52,968 bases of DNA from an uncultured Eubacteriales bacterium (GTDB lineage: Bacteria > Bacillota > Clostridia > Christensenellales > Aristaeellaceae), in the NCBI GenBank assembly GCA_902765735.1, contig CACXBB010000033.1, positions 1-52,968 of the forward strand. Reading direction: 5' to 3'. The notes under the pieces are model-generated. The model did no database searches and was not told the origin of the DNA. It saw only the letters and a list, made by a program, of their open reading frames with translations. The first letter of the stretch is position 1. Every line of letters begins with the position of its first letter. Positions 5,324-52,968 of this stretch are shown here, in pieces. A program made the translations under genes and the position numbers.

Positions 5324-5460
5324 GTTACGACCTCTTCCGTCAGCCCTTCGGGCTGCCACCTTCCCCTGAAGGGGAAGGCATAGCGAAACGCTGCCAAAAG
5401 CCTTCCCCTTCAGGGGAAGGTGGCCCGCGAAGCGGGTCGAAAGAGGTCGTCCCCCGTTCC
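5324..5460. repeat. Composite palindromic intergenic repeat (REP-like family A)
   Basis: Two inverted copies of a hairpin unit with core CCTTCCCCTGAAGGGGAAGG, flanked by small variable stems (GCCCTTCGGGC, CCCGCGAAGCGGG) and by GACCTCTTCCG / AAAGAGGTC ends that are themselves inverted. Variants of the same unit recur near 10895, 14441, 16812, 19341, 32029, 32168 and 41835. The element lies between the binding-protein gene and the permease gene. It could stabilise or attenuate the polycistronic RNA, but no T-run follows, so it is not called a terminator. Confidence 0.85.
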
Positions 5461-9004: not shown

Positions 9005-9054
9005 TTATTGTTAAATCTGTTTAACGCTTTTCACGACGGAAAGGAAGTATGGCA

Positions 9055-10803
9055 ATGAGAAGGACGATAGGCGCCCGGATCGCGCTGGTGGGATTGATGA
9101 TGATCCTGCTGACGCAATGCCTGGGCGCGATGGCGGAGGCGGACACCCGCTGGGCGGACGCCGCCGACGAGATCGACAGATTCCTGGACACGGCCTTCGA
9201 GGACTACCTGGCGGGCAGCGCGGACACCGCCTATCAGAACGTCTCCAACGCATATTTCCGCGTGTACGAGACCACGGGCTTCGAGCGCCAGACGATGAGC
9301 TACATCTCCGGCAACCGCAAAAACGCCGTGGAGATGCAGTTCTCCAACTGCAAGGCGGCGGTCAAAAAGGACAACGCCGAGCAGGACACGAAGGTGTCCG
9401 TGCGCACCGCGCTGGTGAAGCTCAAGGGCATGATCCGCGAGGACGCCAACAAGCTGGCGGACCAGCAGGGCGGCGTGCAGAGCGAGATGAAGTGGTACAA
9501 GGGCGGCGAGTTGGTTTCCGCCGACCCATACCCGGAGTATTCCGCCGACCCCAACGCCGCCGCGAAGTACGAAAGCTGGTACGAGGCCGCGACGCTGGTC
9601 AAGGAGCTGCTGGACACGGCCTACATGGGCTATCTGGACAAGGACTTCACCGCCGCGGCGGACAACCTGGAGACCGCCTATTACAGCGTCTATGAGGAGT
9701 CCGGCCTGTCGCACAAGATCTACACCGACCTCTCGCTGTCCGACCGCCTGGGGATGGAAAAGCAGTTCGCCAGCCTGAACGGGCTGGTGAGCACCGCGGA
9801 GGAGAAGTATCAGAAGAACAAATACCGCACCACCACCGACAAGGCCAAGAACAGCATACTGAAGCTGGCCAAGCGCATCGACGAGCAGGAGGCCGAAGCG
9901 AAGGCGGCGGAGGCCCCGGCGGTTGCCGAGGCGGAGGTCGTGGAGGAGAAGCCCTCCGACCCGCGGCTGCTCACCTTCCTGGCCGCGTTCGGCATCATCG
10001 TGCGCGAGGGGCTGGAGGCCATACTGGTCATCGCCGCCATCATCGCGTACCTCACCAAGTCCGGCAACGGCAGAAGCCTCAAGAACGTGTACATCGGCGC
10101 GGTCGCCGGCATCGCGGCGAGCTTTGCCGCCGCGGCGGTGCTGGCCTGGGCCAAGCGGGCGTTCGTGGGCGCGGGGCTGGCGCAGGAGGTCATCGAGGGC
10201 ATCACCGCGCTGATCGCCGTGTGCGTGCTGTTCTACGTGAGCAACTGGATGATCTCCAAGGCCGAGGCCGCGAGCTGGAGCCGCTACATCGACGGCAAGG
10301 TGCAGTCCTCGGTGGAGCAGGGCAGCGCGTTCGCGCTGGCGTTCACCGCGTTTTTGTCCGTGTTCCGCGAGGGCGCGGAGGTGGTGCTGTTCTACCAGCC
10401 GATGCTTGCCGAGGGCAATCCCGGCATGGTGTGGGCGGGCTTCGGCGCGGGCTGTGTGCTCTTGGTGTTCGTGTACCTGGCCATCACGAAGCTTTCCATT
10501 AGATTGCCCATCAAGGTGTTCTTCACCGCCACGTCGATCCTGATGGCCGTCATGTGCGTGTCCTTCCTCGGCAGCGGCATCAAGGAGCTGGCCGAGGGCA
10601 ATGTGTTCGACCTGTCGCTTCGGGTGCCGGGCATCCCCGAGAACGACGTGATCCAGATCTTCGGCATTTACCCCTACCTCGAGACGCTGGTGCCGCAGCT
10701 CATCCTCTCGATTATACTGCTGGTGACGTTCATGATCGCGCACTATCGCGGCAAGATGGATGCGTTGCGGGCAAAGTACGTAGGGATCAGGAACGAGGAA
10801 TGA
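9055..10803 (+). CDS. FTR1-family high-affinity iron permease with large duplicated external domain
   Basis: 582 residues counted from ATG 9055, preferred over ATG 9049 because the AAGGAA site then has an 8-nt spacer. A signal peptide (cleaved near AMA-EA) precedes about 270 external residues made of two related helical repeats, each with a [YN].V..AY..VYE motif. The permease core follows with the two hallmark motifs REGLE (about 317-321) and REGAE (about 438-442) on membrane helices, which bind and move ferric iron. Family members need an oxidising or reducing partner: here the P19-like, DUF2318 and ABC/FMN genes follow in the same direction. The gene is divergent from an AraC-type regulator. 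Confidence 0.95.
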   Translation: MRRTIGARIALVGLMMILLTQCLGAMAEADTRWADAADEIDRFLDTAFEDYLAGSADTAYQNVSNAYFRVYETTGFERQTMSYISGNRKNAVEMQFSNCKAAVKKDNAEQDTKVSVRTALVKLKGMIREDANKLADQQGGVQSEMKWYKGGELVSADPYPEYSADPNAAAKYESWYEAATLVKELLDTAYMGYLDKDFTAAADNLETAYYSVYEESGLSHKIYTDLSLSDRLGMEKQFASLNGLVSTAEEKYQKNKYRTTTDKAKNSILKLAKRIDEQEAEAKAAEAPAVAEAEVVEEKPSDPRLLTFLAAFGIIVREGLEAILVIAAIIAYLTKSGNGRSLKNVYIGAVAGIAASFAAAAVLAWAKRAFVGAGLAQEVIEGITALIAVCVLFYVSNWMISKAEAASWSRYIDGKVQSSVEQGSAFALAFTAFLSVFREGAEVVLFYQPMLAEGNPGMVWAGFGAGCVLLVFVYLAITKLSIRLPIKVFFTATSILMAVMCVSFLGSGIKELAEGNVFDLSLRVPGIPENDVIQIFGIYPYLETLVPQLILSIILLVTFMIAHYRGKMDALRAKYVGIRNEE

Positions 10804-11136: not shown

Positions 11137-11685
11137 ATGAAGAAGTTTTTGGCCCTGCTGCTCGCAGTGATGATGCTGTCCGTTTCCGCGTTTGCCCTGG
11201 CCGAGGAGGAGGCCGGCTTTGACGAGTACGAGCTGGGCGTCGAGGGCGAGCAGGAGGTCGGCTTCATGACCATGGCGATGGTCTACTTCCAGCCCGTTGA
11301 CATGGCCCCCGCCGATCTGGCCGCGCCCCGTGAGGGCTCCGACCTGCACATCGAAGTGGACCTGACCGCCAACGAAAACCCCTACGGCTTCCCGGTGGAC
11401 GGCTGGGTGCCCTACCTGAGCATCGACTACGTCATCAAGGACACCGAGGGCAAGGAGGTCGTGACCGGCTCCATGATGCCCATGGCGGCGTCCGACGGCC
11501 CCCACTACGGCAACAACATCGCGCTGCCCGAGGGCGAGTACTCCGTGACCCTGTCCATCAAGAGCCCCGCCGAGAACGGCTACCTGCTGCACGTGGACGA
11601 CGAGACCGGCGTCGAAGCCGACGGGTTCTGGACCGAGCCGCTGGAGGCCACCTGGACCGGCTGGAAGTTCGTTAAGGAGTGGTAA
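11137..11685 (+). CDS. P19/Tp34-type periplasmic-like iron-uptake protein
   Basis: 182 residues with a type I signal peptide (MKKFLALLLAVMMLSVSAFA, cut near LA-EE). The mature protein matches the P19/Tp34 family: YFQPVDM, DLHIEVDLTANENPYGF, WVPYLSIDYVI, and GPHYGNNI, which supply the Met, Glu and His metal ligands of the Cu/Mn site in characterised members. P19 proteins bind copper and help ferrous/ferric handling next to FTR1 permeases. There is no lipobox, so it is released or held by partners. AGGAGG lies 8 nt before ATG. It follows FTR1 and precedes the DUF2318 gene, the same order as the Campylobacter p19 locus. Confidence 0.93.
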   Translation: MKKFLALLLAVMMLSVSAFALAEEEAGFDEYELGVEGEQEVGFMTMAMVYFQPVDMAPADLAAPREGSDLHIEVDLTANENPYGFPVDGWVPYLSIDYVIKDTEGKEVVTGSMMPMAASDGPHYGNNIALPEGEYSVTLSIKSPAENGYLLHVDDETGVEADGFWTEPLEATWTGWKFVKEW

Positions 11686-11775: not shown

Positions 11776-13047
11776 ATGCTCAAGTATCTATGGACCGTGA
11801 CCCAGGACCTGTTTGCCGCGGTGACGCTGGTCACCTGGATGCACGCCGTGCTGGCGCGGCGTTATGGCAAACAGGGCACCACCCTGCACGGCGCCGGCAT
11901 CATCCTCGGCGTCGTCGCGTCGGCGGTATTGGCCGCCGTGAAGGGCAACTCCAACAAGATCATATCCAGCCACTGGAACCACTATATCTACGCCTTTATC
12001 ATGGGCTTCACGCTGGGCTTCATCGTGTTCAGCCTGCTGGCCGGGAAGCGGTGGAGCAAAATCCCGCTGTGCCTGTGTGGCGCGGGGCTCTCCGCGGCGC
12101 TGATCTTCTACCAGCTCCCCGGCGTGATGCTGTATCCCTTCAACTTCAATACGATGGGCGAGGGCTACCTCTCGTCCTACTACATGGTGCGCATGGCGGG
12201 CTGGCTGCTGGCGCTCCTGCTGCTCGTCGCCTATTCGCGCATGCTGTACAACTGCGCTTTGCATATCAAACCGCTCGCCACGGTCAACGGGCTGCTGACC
12301 GCCGGGACGCTGGTCAACGCCGCCTACTGCTTCGGCCGGTTCTTCGCGCCCTGGGTCAACCGCGCCAAGTGGCTGAAATGGCCGGTCAAATACACCGAGG
12401 AGGCCTACGGCTGGATCGGCAATTGGATGATGTTCACCGCCTACCAGTCCATGCTGTTCATATGGCTCGTCGCGGCGCTTGCGGCGGCGTGCTTCATCAT
12501 CTGCTTTGCGCAGAACGTCCGCGTGACCGAGCCCTGGGACAACCCCGCCCAGCGCCGCAAGCTGCGCGCCCGCAACCGCCACTTCCGCCGCACGGCCTGC
12601 GGCGCGCTGGCGGCGCTTTTGCTGTTCACGGGCTTTCTGACCATCGTCAAGGCGTATGACACCCGCGTGGTCGAGCTGTCCGCGCCGGAGACCTTCACCG
12701 AGGACGGCGACCGCATACTGGTGCCCATGGAAGCCGTCAACGACTTCCACCTGCACCGCTTCGAGTGGAAGACGCCCAACGGCATCGACGTCCGCTGGAT
12801 CGTGGTGCGCAAGCCCAACTCCGCGTCCTACGGTGTGGGGCTGGACGCCTGCGAGGTCTGCGGCAACGCGGGCTACTACGAGCGCAACGGCCTGGTGGTC
12901 TGCCGCCGCTGCGACGTGGTGATGAACACCAACACCATCGGCTTCAAGGGCGGCTGCAACCCGATACCGCTGGCCTATCAGGTGGAAGGCGGCAATCTGG
13001 TGTTCGCCATGGCCGATCTCATCGCCGGAGAAAGGGAGTTCAAATAA
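11776..13047 (+). CDS. DUF2318-type Fe-S/metal-containing membrane protein of the FTR1-P19 system
   Basis: 423 residues from ATG 11776 (GGAGGAA site; a longer frame upstream lacks one). About seven membrane helices fill residues 1-300, followed by an external or cytosolic soluble tail. The tail carries a Cys-rich centre C359-x2-C362 ... C376-x2-C379 ... C394 with the motif GGCNPIPL, the DUF2318 signature thought to hold an iron-sulfur cluster or metal. A conserved His/Glu-rich strand (FHLHRFEWKT) precedes it. In the Campylobacter p19 locus the equivalent gene is also between p19 and the ABC permeases. Its role is probably electron or metal transfer to support the permease; not experimentally settled. 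Confidence 0.88.
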   Translation: MLKYLWTVTQDLFAAVTLVTWMHAVLARRYGKQGTTLHGAGIILGVVASAVLAAVKGNSNKIISSHWNHYIYAFIMGFTLGFIVFSLLAGKRWSKIPLCLCGAGLSAALIFYQLPGVMLYPFNFNTMGEGYLSSYYMVRMAGWLLALLLLVAYSRMLYNCALHIKPLATVNGLLTAGTLVNAAYCFGRFFAPWVNRAKWLKWPVKYTEEAYGWIGNWMMFTAYQSMLFIWLVAALAAACFIICFAQNVRVTEPWDNPAQRRKLRARNRHFRRTACGALAALLLFTGFLTIVKAYDTRVVELSAPETFTEDGDRILVPMEAVNDFHLHRFEWKTPNGIDVRWIVVRKPNSASYGVGLDACEVCGNAGYYERNGLVVCRRCDVVMNTNTIGFKGGCNPIPLAYQVEGGNLVFAMADLIAGEREFK

Positions 13048-14330
13048 TGCTGTTCAGAATGATACGCGGCGTGCTGTTCCACCAGAAGGGCAAGATGCTG
13101 CTGATCGCCATCACCATCGCGCTGGGCGCGTCGCTGGCCACGGGCATGCTGAACGTGGTGATGGACGTGGAGGACAAGGTCAACAAGGAGCTCAAGAACT
13201 ACGGCGCGAACATCACCGTGAAGCCCAAGGACGCCTCGCTGTTGTCCGACATCTACGACGTGGGCGATGGCGGCGCGCTGAACGCCGCCTACCTGCGGGA
13301 GGACGAGCTGGGCAAGCTCAAGACCATCTTCTGGGCCTTCAACATCGTGGACTTCACGCCCTTCCTCGACGCGCAGGTCACCCTGCCGGACGGCGAGGGC
13401 GCGAAGGTCGTCGGCACCTGGTTCAACCACCACCTGTCGCTGCCCACCGGCGAGGAGCTGGACGCGGGCGTGCAGGGCATGCGCTCCTGGTGGGAGATCA
13501 CCGACGGGCGCTGGCTGAACGAGGCGGACGAAAATGCCGATCAGGAGATCATGGTGGGCGCGCTGCTGGCCGAGCGGGAGCGCTGGACCGTGGGGGAGAG
13601 CGTAAAACTGGGCGATCGGGACATGACCATCGTGGGCATCTACGATGCCGGCGGCGACGAGGACGATCAGATCTTCGCCACGCTGGACGCCGTGCAGGCG
13701 ATGACCGACCGGGAGGGCAAGGTGGCCTCCATCGAGGTCTCCGCGCTGACTACCCCCGACAACGACCTCGCCCGCCGCGCGGCGAAGAACCCCGCGGCGC
13801 TCACCAGCCGCGACTACGAGACCTGGTACTGCACGGCATACGTCAGCGCCATCTGCTATCAGATCCAGGAGGTCATCACCGGCTCGGTGGCCAGCGCCGT
13901 GCGGCAGGTGGCCGAGAGCGAGGGCACGATACTGGACAAAACCAAGCTGCTGATGATCCTGATCACGGCCCTGAGCCTCATCGGCTCGGCGCTGGGCATC
14001 TCCAACCTCGTGACCGCCTCCGTCATGGAGCGCGCGCAGGAGATCGGACTTCTGAAGGCCATCGGCGCGAAGGACCGGTCCATCACCGGCGTGGTGATGA
14101 CGGAGATCCTCATCACCGCGCTGATCGGCTTCGCGGCGGGCTACGGCATGGGCTTCGGCTTCGCGCAGCTCATCGGCCAGAGCGTGTTCGGCTCGGCCAT
14201 CGAGATGAACACCAAGGTCATCCCCGTCGTGGCGGGGCTGATCGCGCTGGTGACCGTCGCGGGCTCCCTGCCCGCCATCCGCATGGTGCTGCGCCTGAAG
14301 CCCGCGGAAGTGCTGCACGGAGGACACTGA
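13047..14330 (+). CDS. FtsX/MacB-type ABC permease of the FTR1-P19 system (first)
   Basis: 427 residues. One N-terminal membrane helix (MLLIAITIALGASLATGML), an external domain of about 230 residues, then three C-terminal helices with the FtsX core motif SVMERAQEIGLLKAIGAKDRS. The start ATG overlaps the preceding stop (TAATG), so it is coupled to the DUF2318 gene. This matches the first of two permeases in the Campylobacter p19 locus. MacB-type permeases do not import; they transmit ATP-driven motion to extracytoplasmic partners. It lacks the FMN domain of its neighbour. Confidence 0.92.
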   Translation: MLFRMIRGVLFHQKGKMLLIAITIALGASLATGMLNVVMDVEDKVNKELKNYGANITVKPKDASLLSDIYDVGDGGALNAAYLREDELGKLKTIFWAFNIVDFTPFLDAQVTLPDGEGAKVVGTWFNHHLSLPTGEELDAGVQGMRSWWEITDGRWLNEADENADQEIMVGALLAERERWTVGESVKLGDRDMTIVGIYDAGGDEDDQIFATLDAVQAMTDREGKVASIEVSALTTPDNDLARRAAKNPAALTSRDYETWYCTAYVSAICYQIQEVITGSVASAVRQVAESEGTILDKTKLLMILITALSLIGSALGISNLVTASVMERAQEIGLLKAIGAKDRSITGVVMTEILITALIGFAAGYGMGFGFAQLIGQSVFGSAIEMNTKVIPVVAGLIALVTVAGSLPAIRMVLRLKPAEVLHGGH

Positions 14331-14542: not shown

Positions 14543-15997
14543 ATGACGAAAAGAAGGATGTTCCTGAGAATGGTCACCGCGTCGCTTTTGCGGCGGCGCT
14601 CGCGGATGCTGATCGCGCTTTTGTCCATCGGCATCGGCGCGACGATCCTGGCGGGCATGGTGACGATCTACTACGACGTGCCGCGGCAGATGCGCGCCCA
14701 GATGCGCTCCTACGGCGCGAACATGCTGCTGATGCCCGCGGAGGGCGAGACGCTGGATTCCGAAAGGCTGTCGGCGGCGCTTCAGAAGCTGCCGGAGGAA
14801 AAGCTGGTGGGGGCGTCGCCCTACCGCTACGTGCGGCTGGACATGACCAGCCGCCAGCAGTCGTTCACCACCGCCGGCACCGATTTCGAGCAGGTCCAGA
14901 AGACCAGCCCCTATTTCAGCGTGGAGGGACGCTATCCCGAGGCGCCGCGCGAGATACTGGTGGGCAAGGAGATCGCCGAGATGATCGGCGTGAAGGAGGG
15001 CTCCAGCATGGAGCTGACCTGGCAGCCCGCGGCGAAGGACGCCTCCGGCAGCGCCGAGGACGACCGGGTGCCCGGCGCGACGCTCTCCGGCAGCGCCAGG
15101 GGCTTCGGCGACGCCGCGGTCTACGTGACTGCGACGCTGGACGATGAAGCGAGGATCGCCGAACTGACGATCGACGCCTCCACCCAGACGCCGGAGTACG
15201 GCGGGCGCACCGCCGAGGACGCGCTGTTCTTAAAGCAGTTCATCGGCAAATCGTTGCCCCTGTCCATGAATGAAGATGTGGATGTTCTGTCCGGCGCGAC
15301 GGTCACCTCGACCGCCGTGGTGGAAGCGCTGAACGCCGCCACCGCCGCCGATGCCGCCGCCAAGCCGAAGACCACGCGCTACGAGGTCACGGGCATACTC
15401 GTCACCGGCGGCGAGGAGGAGGGCTACGTGTTCATGTCCACGGACGACCTGCAGACCCTGACCGGCGAGGACAGGCTGGACGTGGCCGAGCTCTCCGTCT
15501 CCGCGGACGAGGAACAGTTGAACGCCTACGCGGAGGCGCTGACCGGCGACGGCGTGCAGGCGCGGCTGGTGAAGCGCGTCACCAAGTCGGAGACGGCGGT
15601 GCTGGGCAAGCTCCAGGCGCTGGTGTTCCTGGTGACCGTGGTCGTGCTGATCCTGACAATGATCTGCGTGTCCACCACCATGATGGCGGTGGTGTCCGAG
15701 CGGCGTCGGGAGATCGGACTGCGCAAGGCGCTGGGCGCGTCGGACAACTCCATCCGCGGCGAATTCCTGGGCGAGGGCATGTTCCTCGGCCTGCTGGGCG
15801 GCGCGCTGGGCGCGGTGCTGGGCTTCGTGTTCGCGCAGGTGGTGTCGGTGAATGTGTTCAATTCGTCCATCACGTTTCAGCCGCTGCTGCTGCCGGTGAC
15901 GGTTCTGGTCTCGATGCTCATCGCGGCGGCGAGCTGCCTGATGCCGATCAAACGGGCCGTGGCGATCGATCCCGCCATCGTGCTGAAAGGAGAGTAA
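14543..15997 (+). CDS. FtsX/MacB-type ABC permease with an inserted FMN-binding domain
   Basis: 484 residues from ATG 14543 (GGAGGAA site; longer frame is repeat-derived). The layout is one N-terminal helix (about 20-40), external domain, an extra domain at about 182-275, then three C-terminal helices with the FtsX motif SERRREIGLRKALGASDNS. The extra domain runs ARGFGDAAVYVTATLDDEA... to D-V-L-SGAT-V-T-S (SGAT = residues 250-253), the FMN-binding (NqrC/RnfG/ApbE-substrate) motif in which the Thr receives FMN by a phosphoester. It lies outside the membrane. This suggests a flavin electron-transfer step built into the ABC permease of an iron-uptake system. An ApbE transferase is not in the window. 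Confidence 0.9.
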   Translation: MTKRRMFLRMVTASLLRRRSRMLIALLSIGIGATILAGMVTIYYDVPRQMRAQMRSYGANMLLMPAEGETLDSERLSAALQKLPEEKLVGASPYRYVRLDMTSRQQSFTTAGTDFEQVQKTSPYFSVEGRYPEAPREILVGKEIAEMIGVKEGSSMELTWQPAAKDASGSAEDDRVPGATLSGSARGFGDAAVYVTATLDDEARIAELTIDASTQTPEYGGRTAEDALFLKQFIGKSLPLSMNEDVDVLSGATVTSTAVVEALNAATAADAAAKPKTTRYEVTGILVTGGEEEGYVFMSTDDLQTLTGEDRLDVAELSVSADEEQLNAYAEALTGDGVQARLVKRVTKSETAVLGKLQALVFLVTVVVLILTMICVSTTMMAVVSERRREIGLRKALGASDNSIRGEFLGEGMFLGLLGGALGAVLGFVFAQVVSVNVFNSSITFQPLLLPVTVLVSMLIAAASCLMPIKRAVAIDPAIVLKGE

Positions 15998-16000
15998 AAC

Positions 16001-16675
16001 ATGGCGCTTCTTGAACTGAAAAACATATCAAAGATATACGGCGAATTAAAGGCGCTGGACAACGTGAGCCTCCACGTGGACAAGGGTGAGTGGGTGGCCA
16101 TCATGGGACCCTCCGGCTCCGGCAAGTCCACGATGATGAACATCATCGGCTGCATGGACAAGCCCACCAAGGGCGAGGTGCTGCTGGACGGCGAGGACAT
16201 CTCCCGTCTCCCCGGCAAGCGGCTGACGGACATCCGCCGCGACAAGATCGGCCTGATCTTCCAGCAGTTCCACATGGTCACCTACCTGACCGCGGTGGAG
16301 AATGTGATGGTCTCGCAGTACTACCATTCGATGCCCGACGAGGCCGAGGCGCTGGAGGCGCTGGGGCGCGTGGGACTTCGGGAGCGCGCGAAGCACCTGC
16401 CCAGCCAGCTCTCCGGCGGTGAGCAGCAGCGCGTGTGCGTGGCGCGGGCGCTGATCAATCACCCAGAACTGATCCTCGCCGACGAGCCCACCGGCAACCT
16501 CGACGAGGCCAACGAAAACATCGTGCTCGACCTGTTCCGGCAGCTCCACCGCGAGGGCACCACGCTCATCGTCGTGACCCATGACCCCGAGGTCGCCGAG
16601 GCCGCCCAGCGCACCATCGTGCTGGAGCACGGCAGGGTGGCGAGGGAGGTTGTCAACGAAAACTTTGTGGAATGA
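16001..16675 (+). CDS. LolD/MacB-type ABC ATPase partner of the two permeases
   Basis: 224 residues, a complete single nucleotide-binding domain: Walker A GPSGSGKST (about 37-45), Q-loop FQQF, signature LSGGEQQR, Walker B LILADEPTGNLD and H-loop VTHD. The length and ADEPTGNLD are typical of the MacB/LolD class that pairs with FtsX-type permeases. The gene starts 3 bp after the stop of the FMN-domain permease with a GAAAGGAGAG site, so permease and ATPase are made together. It corresponds to the third ABC gene in the Campylobacter p19 locus. Confidence 0.94.
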   Translation: MALLELKNISKIYGELKALDNVSLHVDKGEWVAIMGPSGSGKSTMMNIIGCMDKPTKGEVLLDGEDISRLPGKRLTDIRRDKIGLIFQQFHMVTYLTAVENVMVSQYYHSMPDEAEALEALGRVGLRERAKHLPSQLSGGEQQRVCVARALINHPELILADEPTGNLDEANENIVLDLFRQLHREGTTLIVVTHDPEVAEAAQRTIVLEHGRVAREVVNENFVE

Positions 16676-17020: not shown

Positions 17021-17413
17021 ATGAAAAAGACAATCATCCCCGCCCTGATCGTACTGATCCTATCCCTTCTCGCTGCCCTCGGCAGCCAGACCTTCCTGGG
17101 CGCGTGCGTCCACGAGGACGGGAGTTTTGGCGCGTGCCACTGGGCTTGTCGGGCGATATTGGGCGAGGGCGGTCTGCTGGCGGTGCTGTCGCTGCTGGCG
17201 CTGGCGCTCAAAAGGGAACGCGCGGGGCTGTATCTGGCGATGCTGCCCGCGTCAGTGCTGGGGCTTCTGACCCCCGGAACGCTGATCGCGCTTTGCAAGA
17301 TGCCGACCATGCGCTGCCGCATGCTGACGCAGCCCGCGATGCTGATACTGTTCGGCGCGATGCTGGTCGCGGCGCTCGTCGGCTGGCTGCAGTCGCGCAG
17401 GGGGGAGAAATAG
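17021..17413 (+). CDS. DUF4418-family small membrane protein
   Basis: 130 residues with four predicted membrane helices. After the first helix comes a Cys/His-rich segment, FLGACVHEDGSFGACHWACR, which is the conserved feature of DUF4418 proteins (C-x-H ... CHWxxx), and a later KMPTMRCRMLTQP loop with another Cys. These conserved Cys and His residues could bind metal at the outer face. The gene has a GAAAGG site and is followed 3 bp later by the third FtsX-type permease, so it likely works with that ABC pair. The function of the family is unknown. Confidence 0.8.
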   Translation: MKKTIIPALIVLILSLLAALGSQTFLGACVHEDGSFGACHWACRAILGEGGLLAVLSLLALALKRERAGLYLAMLPASVLGLLTPGTLIALCKMPTMRCRMLTQPAMLILFGAMLVAALVGWLQSRRGEK

Positions 17414-17416
17414 CCT

Positions 17417-18616
17417 ATGGGGACTTCTGGTCTGCCGATCAAGAACCTGCTCCGGCGACCCGGGCGCACGACGGCCCTGATACTGCTGACGGCGCTTTTA
17501 GCGGCGTCGGTGTTCGGCGGCTCGGTGGTGGTCGGCTCGCTGCGGCGCGGCCTTGAGAGCCTGGAGGCGCGGCTCGGCGCGGACATCATCGTGATGCCCT
17601 CCGAGGCCGAGAGCAAGGTCAGCTTCAAGAACATGCTTTTGCAGGGCACCACCGGCGCGTTCTACATGGACGCCTCGGTGCTGGACGAAGTGCGCGGGGC
17701 GCAGGGCGTGGAGCTCGCCGCGCCGCAGACCTTCCTGGCCTCGTTGAAGGCCGACTGCTGCGCCATCAAGGTGCAGATCATCGGCATCGATCCCGGCGCG
17801 GACTTCACCGTGAAGCCGTGGATCGAGGAGCGCTATGCCCGGGACCTCGGGGACATGGAGGTGGCCGTGGGCTGCAAGGTCACGGCGGGCGTGGGGGAGA
17901 CGCTCAAAATCTACGAGCAGTACACCCACGTGGTGGCGAAGCTGGCAGAGACCGGCACCGGGCTCGACACGGCGGTCTACTGCAACATGGACACCATGCA
18001 AAAGCTGCTGGCCGCCGCGGAGGCCAAGGGTGTCAGCCACAAAATCTCCAGCGGCTCCGACGTGATCTCCGCCGTATACGTGAAGGTGAAGGACGGCTAC
18101 GACCCGGGCCAGGTGAACAACTGGCTCAACGGGCACATCCGCAAGGTCACCGCCGTGCGCGCCCGCAGTATGTTCACCGACGTGGCCGACAGCCTCTCCG
18201 ACATCGCCCGCGCGGCCCGGGCGCTGATCGGTGCGGTGTGGGCGCTGGCGCTGGCGATACTGCTGGTGGCCTTCGCCATGATGATCCACGAGCGGCGGCG
18301 GGAGTTCGCGGTGCTGCGATTGCTGGGCGTGTCCCGGCGCGGGCTGCGCGGGGAGATCCTCTCGGAGACCACGCTGTGCGGCCTGGCGGGGGCGCTCGTC
18401 GGCGTGGGCGTCGCGGCGCTGGGCGTGTTCCCGTTCACGACGCTGATCGAGACGAAGCTGGGCCTTCCGTACCTGACGCCCGCCGCCGGGACGCTTCTGA
18501 AGCTGGCGGTCGGCACGGTGCTGGCGACGCTGGCGGTCGGGCTGCTGGCGGGGGCCTGGGCGGCGGCGCGGCTGAGCCGCACCGACCCCGGCACGACGCT
18601 GAGAGAGGGGGCGTGA
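17417..18616 (+). CDS. FtsX-type ABC permease (third in the iron locus)
   Basis: 399 residues. N-terminal helix (LILLTALLAASVFGGSVVV), an external domain of about 220 residues beginning GADIIVMPSEAESKV, then three C-terminal helices with HERRREFAVLRLLGVSRRG, the FtsX core loop. The external part contains a Cys pair (KADCCAIKV) and is shorter than in the two upstream permeases. It begins 3 bp after the DUF4418 stop and precedes its own ATPase by 2 bp, so DUF4418, permease and ATPase form a second ABC unit joined to the FTR1 system. Confidence 0.9.
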   Translation: MGTSGLPIKNLLRRPGRTTALILLTALLAASVFGGSVVVGSLRRGLESLEARLGADIIVMPSEAESKVSFKNMLLQGTTGAFYMDASVLDEVRGAQGVELAAPQTFLASLKADCCAIKVQIIGIDPGADFTVKPWIEERYARDLGDMEVAVGCKVTAGVGETLKIYEQYTHVVAKLAETGTGLDTAVYCNMDTMQKLLAAAEAKGVSHKISSGSDVISAVYVKVKDGYDPGQVNNWLNGHIRKVTAVRARSMFTDVADSLSDIARAARALIGAVWALALAILLVAFAMMIHERRREFAVLRLLGVSRRGLRGEILSETTLCGLAGALVGVGVAALGVFPFTTLIETKLGLPYLTPAAGTLLKLAVGTVLATLAVGLLAGAWAAARLSRTDPGTTLREGA

Positions 18617-18618
18617 AC

Positions 18619-19308
18619 ATGCTGAGAGCTGAGAACCTGTCCATGCGCTACTTCCGAAAGACCGGACAGGCCAATCATTTCTACGCGGTGAAGGATGTGT
18701 GCCTGGAGCTGCGCCCCGGCGAGGTGGCGCTGCTCACGGGCCGCTCCGGCTCCGGCAAGACGACGCTTTTGCACATGCTCTCGGGGCTTTTGAAGCCCAC
18801 CGAGGGCAGGGTCATGCTGGACGATACGGACCTTTACGCCCTGCCGGACGCCGATCTTTCGCGTCTGCGCAACGCGAAGTTCGGCGTGATCCCTCAGGGC
18901 CGAAGCGCCGTGGACACCCTTACCGTACTGGAAAACGTGCTCTTGCCCCAGCAGCTTCGCGGCGAGAAGGGGAATGTGGACGAGGCCGTGAAATGGCTGG
19001 CCGCCCTCGGCATCGCCGACCTCACAAACGCCCGCCCCGCCGAGCTGTCCGGCGGCGAGCTTCGGCGCATGGCCATCGCCCGTGCGCTGGCCGGCAACCC
19101 GGACATCATACTCGCGGACGAGCCCACCGGCGACCTCGACGACGAAAACACCGCGGCGGTGCTGTCGCTGCTGCAAAGGTCCGCCGTGGAGGATGGAAAG
19201 ACGGTGCTGCTGGTCACGCACGACAGCGAGGCGCTGCCCTATGGGACGGCGATCTATCGCCTGGAGAGCGGCACGCTGTCCCCGGGGCGCTGTCCCGATG
19301 TCCGATAA
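18619..19308 (+). CDS. LolD/MacB-type ABC ATPase of the second FtsX unit
   Basis: 229 residues from ATG 18619. Walker A GRSGSGKTT (about 42-50), signature LSGGELRR, Walker B IILADEPTGDLD and H-loop VTHD are intact. The Q-loop reads VIPQGRS, a variant also seen in other FtsX-type ATPases. It should power the permease whose stop codon is 2 bp upstream. It is the last gene of the iron locus; a long repeat array follows and no clear T-run terminator is seen. Confidence 0.93.
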   Translation: MLRAENLSMRYFRKTGQANHFYAVKDVCLELRPGEVALLTGRSGSGKTTLLHMLSGLLKPTEGRVMLDDTDLYALPDADLSRLRNAKFGVIPQGRSAVDTLTVLENVLLPQQLRGEKGNVDEAVKWLAALGIADLTNARPAELSGGELRRMAIARALAGNPDIILADEPTGDLDDENTAAVLSLLQRSAVEDGKTVLLVTHDSEALPYGTAIYRLESGTLSPGRCPDVR

Positions 19309-52369: not shown

Positions 52370-52398
52370 TTGACAAATCCCATCATCGGTGGTATACC
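52370..52398 (+). promoter_or_regulatory. Promoter for the flavin reductase gene
   Basis: TTGACA (52370-52375), 17-bp spacer, TATACC (52393-52398), 55 bp before ATG 52454. It overlaps a CCCAT/ATGGG inverted repeat (about 52379-52408). Confidence 0.75.
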
Positions 52399-52453
52399 CA
52401 TACATGGGATCGAATGGGCGCCGCTGCGCCCGGGAGAAGAAGGAGATGTAATT

Positions 52454-52968
52454 ATGAAGAAGATCCTGTGTCTGATGCTCGCTTTGATGATGGTGATGAG
52501 CTTTTCCGCGTTTGCCGAGGACGGCACCTTTACCGGCGTCGGCGAGGGCGGCAAGGCCGGCAATGTGTCCGTCGAAGTCACCGTTGAGGGCGGCGCGATC
52601 AAGGACATCAACATTCTGGAAAACGAAGAGACCGAGGGCCTGGGCGACGTAGCCATGGAGGATCTGAAGCAGCAGATGCTGATCGGCAACACCGTGGACG
52701 TCGAGGCCGTCACCGGCGCGACCCTGTCCTCTACCGCGTTCATCGCCGCCGTGAAGGATGCCCTCTCTCAGGCCGGCATCGATCCGGAAAGCCTGGTCGC
52801 CACCGGCGAGACCGCCGAAGCGGCGGAGCTGGAGGACGCCTATGACTGCGACGTGCTGGTGATCGGCGCGGGCGGCGCGGGCATGGCTGCCGCCATCAAG
52901 GCCAAGGAGGCCGGCGCGAACGTCATACTGATCGAAAAGATGAACAACATCGGCGGCAACACCCTGCT
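52454..52968 (+). CDS. Secreted FMN/FAD reductase of the fumarate/urocanate reductase type (3' end outside window)
   Basis: 171 residues are visible. A signal peptide (MKKILCLMLALMMVMSFSAFA-ED) is followed by an FMN-binding domain (GVGEGGKAGNVSVEVTVEGG ... VTGATLSST); TGAT at 87-90 is the covalent FMN-Thr motif set by ApbE. After a linker an FAD-binding Rossmann segment begins: CDVLVIGAGGAGMAAAIKA (about 132-150) and LIEKMNNIGGNT. This domain order is that of extracellular flavin reductases (fumarate, urocanate, methacrylate or other enoate acceptors). The acceptor cannot be named without the C-terminal half. AAGGAG lies upstream of ATG and a near-consensus promoter precedes it. Confidence 0.9.
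   Translation, partial: MKKILCLMLALMMVMSFSAFAEDGTFTGVGEGGKAGNVSVEVTVEGGAIKDINILENEETEGLGDVAMEDLKQQMLIGNTVDVEAVTGATLSSTAFIAAVKDALSQAGIDPESLVATGETAEAAELEDAYDCDVLVIGAGGAGMAAAIKAKEAGANVILIEKMNNIGGNTL

Follow-up and report, generated by a model that had tools for sequence, protein, structure and literature searches.

How can a permease of an iron-uptake operon contain a flavin-binding domain, and what would such a domain do there? The question is raised by a 52,968-nucleotide contig of an uncultured Eubacteriales bacterium (assembly GCA_902765735.1; hereafter the window), in which an operon on the forward strand, as are all its genes and their parts given below, encodes two adjacent permeases of the MacB/FtsX type. 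The gene of the second, FetC (14543..15997; 484 aa), is preceded by the Shine-Dalgarno-like GGAGGAATAACATG, starts with ATG at 14543 and ends with a stop at 15997; frame and coordinates are those of an earlier note made from the DNA letters. That note had placed an FMN domain in the external loop of this permease and proposed a Pfam search and a structure prediction. Pfam assigned MacB_PCD to residues 23-196, FMN_bind (PF04205) to residues 192-266 (15116-15340; 40.7 bits, with the cut-off at 22; E = 3.8e-10) and FtsX to residues 363-477, and a whole-genome domain scan recovered the same FMN_bind match. FetC has the topology of type VII proteins: TM1, a large extracytoplasmic domain and three TM helices of the FtsX fold. 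A full-length AlphaFold2 model (pLDDT 81.5, pTM 0.56) was matched by Foldseek to LolE (best, E = 2.1e-18), MacB (E = 6e-15) and LolC; the mutual placement of its domains is unsure, given the pTM of 0.56 and an rmsd above 11. A profile of 20 fused permeases matched RnfG (9eri_G) at residues 171-270 (E = 1.4e-8), and its matches in the C-terminal half were to MacB and LolE. In the alignment the insert is cleanly flanked on either side by a strand of the extracytoplasmic domain and is missing from all ten aligned unfused homologues. In MacB/FtsX-type permeases the domain between TM1 and TM2 faces outward, and the outward side of the membrane is where ApbE acts. The models place the insert in this outward-facing domain, after TM1 and before TM2, so that the Pfam and fold matches bear out the position proposed earlier.

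The inserted domain, delimited by Pfam, profile, AlphaFold2 and Foldseek, spans residues 178-272 (15074..15358). Modelled alone (AlphaFold2; pLDDT 92.5, pTM 0.85), it adopts an RnfG-type FMN fold, and its four best PDB matches found with Foldseek are all RnfG subunits. The best of them, 9eri_G, has a TM-score of 0.76 by query length, an rmsd of 2.1, a probability of 1.00 and E = 0.0027, in a search in which nothing reached E = 0.001. The domain contains the motif D247-VLSGA-T253 (15281..15301; Thr253 codon, 15299-15301), which fits completely the ApbE consensus D-x-x-[S/T]-G-A-[S/T] given in an excerpt of PMC12052999. D247, G251, A252 and T253 are invariant in 41/41 aligned fused proteins, and with Thr in every one of them Thr253 is, as had been suspected, the likely ApbE site. 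The motif is present in 80 of 81 fused loci, the window included, L151 being the exception; in L057 the residue before the motif Gly is Ala and not Ser/Thr. The dN/dS ratio of the FMN domain is below 1 in all seven computable pairs (0.09-0.54; an eighth pair was not computable), and that of the remaining FetC is 0.11-0.25. In the fused FetC of L151 (L151:7072-8535), an in-frame deletion takes out the flavinylation Thr together with the following helix; this may be a decaying gene, a variant that is not flavinylated or a fault of the assembly.

The operon around FetC opens with an FTR1 iron permease of the FetM type with a long N-terminal part (9049..10803; 584 aa; Pfam FTR1, E = 7.9e-38), whose two REG.E motifs are conserved among 34 sequences. 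It is followed by a P19/FetP iron-binding protein (11137..11685; 182 aa; Pfam Iron_transport, E = 4.1e-48), with M114, M116, H123 and H152 kept in 35/35 sequences, and by the membrane protein FetA (11776..13047), which has a C-terminal Cys-rich FtrD-like (DUF2318) domain (Pfam, E = 3.5e-27). The FetA cysteines follow the pattern CxxC-x13-CxxC-x14-C, and five Cys and one His are present in all 35 sequences. A role of FetA as a haem-bearing electron conduit was considered and rejected, as no transmembrane His is conserved across the 35 sequences. The first permease, FetB (13047..14330), matches FtsX (E = 2.7e-20) and MacB_PCD (E = 1e-15) in Pfam and shows no FMN_bind match, in agreement with the earlier statement that the sister permease lacks the domain. 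FetB has an invariant extracytoplasmic Cys (codon 13830..13832) in a WYCTAY motif found in 35/35 FetB proteins of the phylum of the window, as well as in Fusobacterium (L222) and on an E. coli plasmid (L223). This Cys is a likely redox or metal site; the excerpts of the P19/Fet literature consulted here make no mention of the motif. The ATPase FetD (16001..16675; Pfam ABC_tran, E = 8.6e-36), with Walker A, signature and Walker B sequences, completes the ABC unit.

Six genes of the known system, namely, those for FTR1, P19, the DUF2318 protein, two FtsX-type permeases and an ATPase, are thus present in order according to Pfam, which upholds the operon context read from the window at the outset. 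A seventh, carrier gene for a thioredoxin or an FMN-binding protein is absent from the window, where the FMN domain is found within FetC instead. According to excerpts of PMC6083913, the first six genes stay the same throughout 33 species and it is the seventh that varies; since the seventh is also unrecognised in 8/20 unfused clusters described below, membership in the FetMP-FetABCD group rests on the six genes. On these ordered domain matches, we identify the operon as the known FTR1-P19-FetA-FetB-FetC-FetD iron-uptake cluster and the fused protein as its FetC. Instead of an FMN gene, the next gene 3' of FetD in the window encodes a DUF4418 protein (17021..17413; Pfam, E = 1.8e-22), followed by a third MacB/FtsX-type permease without an FMN domain (17417..18616; Pfam FtsX, E = 6.9e-16, and MacB_PCD) and a second ABC ATPase (18616..19308; Pfam ABC_tran, E = 3.1e-32). 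Most Fet loci of the window's family are accompanied by this module of DUF4418 protein, MacB-type permease and ATPase, which also occurs near Fet clusters in other genomes of the class (L219, L220) and in Fusobacterium (L222). The window also contains five copies of a short interspersed palindromic repeat, CCTTCCCCTTNAGGGGAAGGTGGC (at 5355, 5401, 10897, 14439 and 41835), two of which occupy spacers of the Fet operon.

To see what stands in related clusters, we collected unfused homologues. Among 398 sampled genomes of the phylum, 18 stretches with a DUF2318 match were examined, a set without the PF10080 matches in short frames or below the cut-off; L081 (G444), L082 (G353), L084 (G243) and L085 (G230:C41), in which FTR1 and P19 do not accompany DUF2318, were excluded from the counts. 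The whole six-gene cluster was found in 14 phylum genomes besides the window's own, in each case with a second permease that is plain and 372-393 aa long. The gene directly 3' of the ATPase encodes a separate FMN_bind protein in five of these (Pfam) and a small CxxCH protein in one (below the Pfam cut-off), while no carrier was recognised in eight, which were re-tested with a profile of the separate FMN proteins. After FetD, L078 has a 78-aa frame with a weak FMN match (12.5 bits) that is too short for the domain. The CxxCH protein (L075:9228-9503) looks secreted, has two such motifs and is a cytochrome-like occupant of the position. In the class sample (291 genomes), the three others with the permease all have it in plain form, together with a separate FMN_bind protein (3/3). 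The Fusobacterium cluster likewise combines a plain permease with a separate FMN protein, detected with a home-made profile, and that of the E. coli plasmid combines one with a TlpA-type thioredoxin after the ATPase. Upstream of FTR1, the plasmid cluster also has a gene for an NqrC-like FMN_bind protein (L223:902-1717), along with Dsb-type genes, so that flavin may serve the Fet system in Proteobacteria too.

Taken together, FetC is plain in all 20 unfused clusters, and the position after the ATPase holds a separate FMN protein in ten (five from the phylum, three from the class, that of G061 and that of Fusobacterium), a cytochrome-like protein in one, a thioredoxin in one and no recognised carrier in eight. 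A simple lipobox pattern fits eight of the ten separate FMN proteins, and nine contain D-x-x-x-G-A-T, L219 having Glu for Asp. Judged by its occupants, the position 3' of FetD is a slot for a carrier, although a carrier gene in it is not always needed, given the eight clusters with none recognised. A separate FMN protein was looked for near FetD in 76 fused loci (the window and 75 named loci), 68 of which extend at least 600 bases beyond FetD; at E = 1, none was found by either of two profiles, one of them built from nine separate proteins. By this distribution of genes, the domain in fused loci stands in place of the separate seventh gene.

The earlier note had left room for a fusion confined to one assembly; it is not. 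The permease occurs in 37 of 120 sampled genomes of the window's family and is fused in 36 of them, with domain and motif seen directly in 36/36; these include 12 genomes that were first counted from an unbroken match and confirmed on re-check. Residues 1-484 are matched unbroken in 34/37 genomes; in G086 and G108 the match is in two pieces owing to a longer loop, and the domain is present. G061 is the sole sampled family genome that has the permease without the FMN domain. In the best 80 of 396 named relatives, the domain is found in 80/80 and the motif in 79/80 (L151 being the exception); these loci are not a random sample, because they were taken by similarity and come partly from the same assemblies as the family genomes. 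Their record labels include Clostridia, Clostridiales, Oscillospiraceae, Lachnospiraceae, Blautia sp. and Christensenella sp., and many of the loci are from ruminant gut. In a sample of the order (297 genomes), DUF2318 matches that were both strong (at least 98 bits) and in long frames numbered five, all in the window's family; this count leaves out two weak long-frame matches (G552, G578). Fused FetC was found in none of the 14 phylum clusters, three class matches, one Fusobacterium cluster and one E. coli plasmid cluster that make up the comparison outside the family, which does not cover Actinobacteria, Spirochaetes and Synergistetes. With the FMN insert as a query against plasmids there was no match. 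In another plasmid search, which matched 846 records, two of these were examined. The fusion is a trait of a family of mostly uncultured gut Clostridia.

To investigate the origin of the insert, a cluster tree was built from FetB, FetD, FetA and the FetC columns without the insert, and rooted at the midpoint. The unfused cluster of G061 and the 20 fused clusters form a sister pair with a support of 100, the fused side itself having 78, and the next branch is another cluster with a separate FMN protein. Since both carry one, the separate FMN protein probably came first. In the domain tree, the inserted domain groups among RnfG-like and multi-FMN domains. Relocation of the operon's own FMN gene into FetC was rejected (AU p = 0.003 for a clade of fused and operon-borne domains); tree and test rest on 80 columns and call for caution, and the hypothesis was a prior alternative, yet was tested after the first tree had been viewed. 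The fused domains do not form one clade in the tree, multi-FMN domains of G048 lying among them, and a single clade of fused domains is not rejected either (AU p = 0.42). By its affinities in these trees, the insert is RnfG/multi-FMN-like and of another lineage than the FMN protein of the operon. The FMN function would thus have been kept while the gene supplying it was exchanged and fixed to FetC, an indication that flavin is needed at this position.

ApbE is encoded in 109/120 family genomes, including 35/37 of those with the permease. The window's own assembly (G000; 96.7% complete, 73 contigs) gave 0 ApbE matches and 11 FMN_bind matches; as ApbE is present in 4/4 other sampled genomes of the same genus, an assembly gap would be the simplest reason. 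G079, which has the fusion and is 72% complete, also lacks an ApbE match. In G437, G293 and G318 the operon FMN protein is the only FMN_bind match, and in two of these three genomes ApbE lies beside the P19 cluster (L070, L071); in the third, G318 (L079), the stretch around the cluster contains none. This adjacency ties ApbE to the Fet system, not in every case. The window's genome also has RNF. Elsewhere in the same genome, what we take to be an RnfD-like part and an RnfG-like part appear to share one 524-aa frame ahead of two Rnf-Nqr genes (L173:6033-7607). At the end of the window (52370-52968) begins a fumarate-reductase-like protein with FMN_bind and FAD_binding_2 domains, which is ended by the contig end.

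A link between flavin and iron uptake is not new, given the published mutants of Bifidobacterium breve and the FMN gene already reported in P19 clusters. Excerpts of PMC6083913 (2018) describe an FMN-binding protein as the seventh gene of P19 clusters, and those of PMC8238504 (2021) report FMN-binding proteins in a set of 260 such clusters. Insertion mutants of B. breve in sifE, the gene of the separate FMN protein, and in apbE are sensitive to the iron chelators dipyridyl and phenanthroline, growing poorly or not at all, and not to ciclopirox, according to excerpts of PMC5449479; its authors regard apbE as an Fe-S gene, so that the apbE phenotype may have another cause. In Campylobacter jejuni, fetB and fetC are each needed, and a model in PMC10783030 (excerpts) has FetBCD supply reducing power via FetA; the available portions of both PMC6083913 and PMC10783030 describe the job of FetBCD as unclear. 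The bfeUO-sifABCDE cluster of B. breve and other Gram-positive P19 clusters share with the window the FTR1 protein, the iron-binding protein, the membrane protein, two FtsX permeases and the ATPase, as well as the participation of an FMN-binding protein. They differ in that the FMN domain is a separate seventh-gene protein, whereas in the window it lies inside the second permease and belongs to another FMN_bind lineage. The first six genes of C. jejuni fetMP-fetABCDEF correspond to those of the window in family and order, whereas its carriers are the thioredoxin-like FetE/F, and the excerpts mention no FMN domain in FetC. RnfG/NqrC and the multi-FMN protein CbFMN4 are the closest relatives of the insert in sequence and fold and share the motif D-x-x-[S/T]-G-A-T; unlike the insert, neither belongs to an ABC transporter, the former being subunits of redox complexes and the latter carriers of tandem domains. 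MacB, LolCDE, FtsEX and YbbAP (type VII) have the same permease fold with an extracytoplasmic domain between TM1 and TM2, but differ in substrates and, judging by the titles of matched entries, have no built-in cofactor domain. A fusion of FMN domain and permease is not mentioned in the excerpts of PMC6083913 and PMC8238504, the supplementary tables of the latter being a place where such genes may be listed. Mainly open-access literature yielded no description of an FMN_bind-FtsX/MacB fusion or of a covalent flavin in an ABC permease; the earlier note, too, had known of no description of the fusion. As far as this search extends, what is new is that the domain is built in, that the fusion is spread through the family and that it arose by displacement.

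The reading that we favour, and consider more likely than not, is that FetC carries its own covalent flavin, which delivers electrons for iron uptake and replaces a separate carrier. The RnfG-type FMN domain in the extracytoplasmic domain of FetC would take over from the FMN protein or thioredoxin, with ApbE attaching FMN to Thr253, as the motif suggests. The flavin may take electrons from the membrane side, possibly from RNF, and at the FetB-FetC heterodimer could pass them to the conserved thiols of FetB/FetA; from there they would reach ferric iron or its ligand, and P19 and FTR1 would then take the iron in. The proposal in the earlier note that the flavin supplies electrons for iron is backed to this extent, by homology and by the literature. 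Because FetBCD resembles type VII mechanotransmission units, the two extracytoplasmic domains may, as ATP drives their motion, alternately bring the flavin to its partner. A bolder and decidedly tentative extension is that FetBCD might be an ATP-driven electron-delivery machine, in which a mechanotransmission arm moves the covalent flavin between its donor and a FetB/FetA thiol centre and in this way couples ATP hydrolysis to the reduction or release of ferric iron outside the membrane. We know of no ABC transporter with an electron-delivery job.

Several other explanations have to be weighed against electron delivery. That assembly or gene prediction joined two genes is scarcely credible. Judging by record titles the source genomes are mostly MAGs, but the fusion is one open frame, with the same homologous insertion place in many assemblies of several projects, and it is an insertion within a domain, not a head-to-tail join; on this recurrence we reject an artefact. 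It is also improbable that the insert is structural or degenerate and binds no FMN. Its faster evolution than that of the remaining FetC, the loss of Thr in one locus (L151) and the lack of ApbE in the window's assembly would fit such a state; against it stand the motif residues D, G, A and T, which 41/41 aligned proteins keep, dN/dS below 1 in every computable pair and ApbE in 35 of the 37 permease-bearing family genomes. Slightly less remote, though still unlikely, is a flavin that serves as a redox sensor, tuning the ABC unit by gating ATP hydrolysis and carrying no electrons to iron. The location of the domain in a LolE/MacB-like extracytoplasmic part that is expected to move agrees with a sensor, but the domain replaces separate carriers of the same system (FMN protein, thioredoxin, cytochrome-like protein), with which a carrier fits better.

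FTR1 belongs to a permease family linked to ferroxidases. This link, together with the intact REG.E motifs of the FTR1 protein, would suit a flavinylated and redox-active domain that works as an electron acceptor, with electrons passing from Fe(II) or thiols to the flavin and FTR1 receiving Fe(III). Electrons might indeed run this opposite way, because FetE/F of C. jejuni resemble oxidases more than reductases according to excerpts of PMC10783030. We nevertheless regard the acceptor role as doubtful, if the least so of these four alternatives: in SaFMN3, a related protein that binds FMN covalently, the potential is -184 mV (PMC10339131, excerpt), which would be low for oxidising most ferrous complexes, and in an anaerobe reduction is the easier direction.

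If electron delivery by FetC is the right reading, the fusion is a natural case of an electron carrier bound to FetC, points to the extracytoplasmic domains of FetBC as the site of the redox step and suggests where electrons enter the iron-uptake system. It also argues against the carrier being an exported cargo of FetBCD: a carrier that can be a fixed part of FetC does not have to be released or exported by the ABC unit. For work on the system, the fusion provides a test object in one polypeptide, with Thr253 as the residue concerned. In this family of gut Clostridia, iron uptake would then involve a covalent flavin within an ABC permease.
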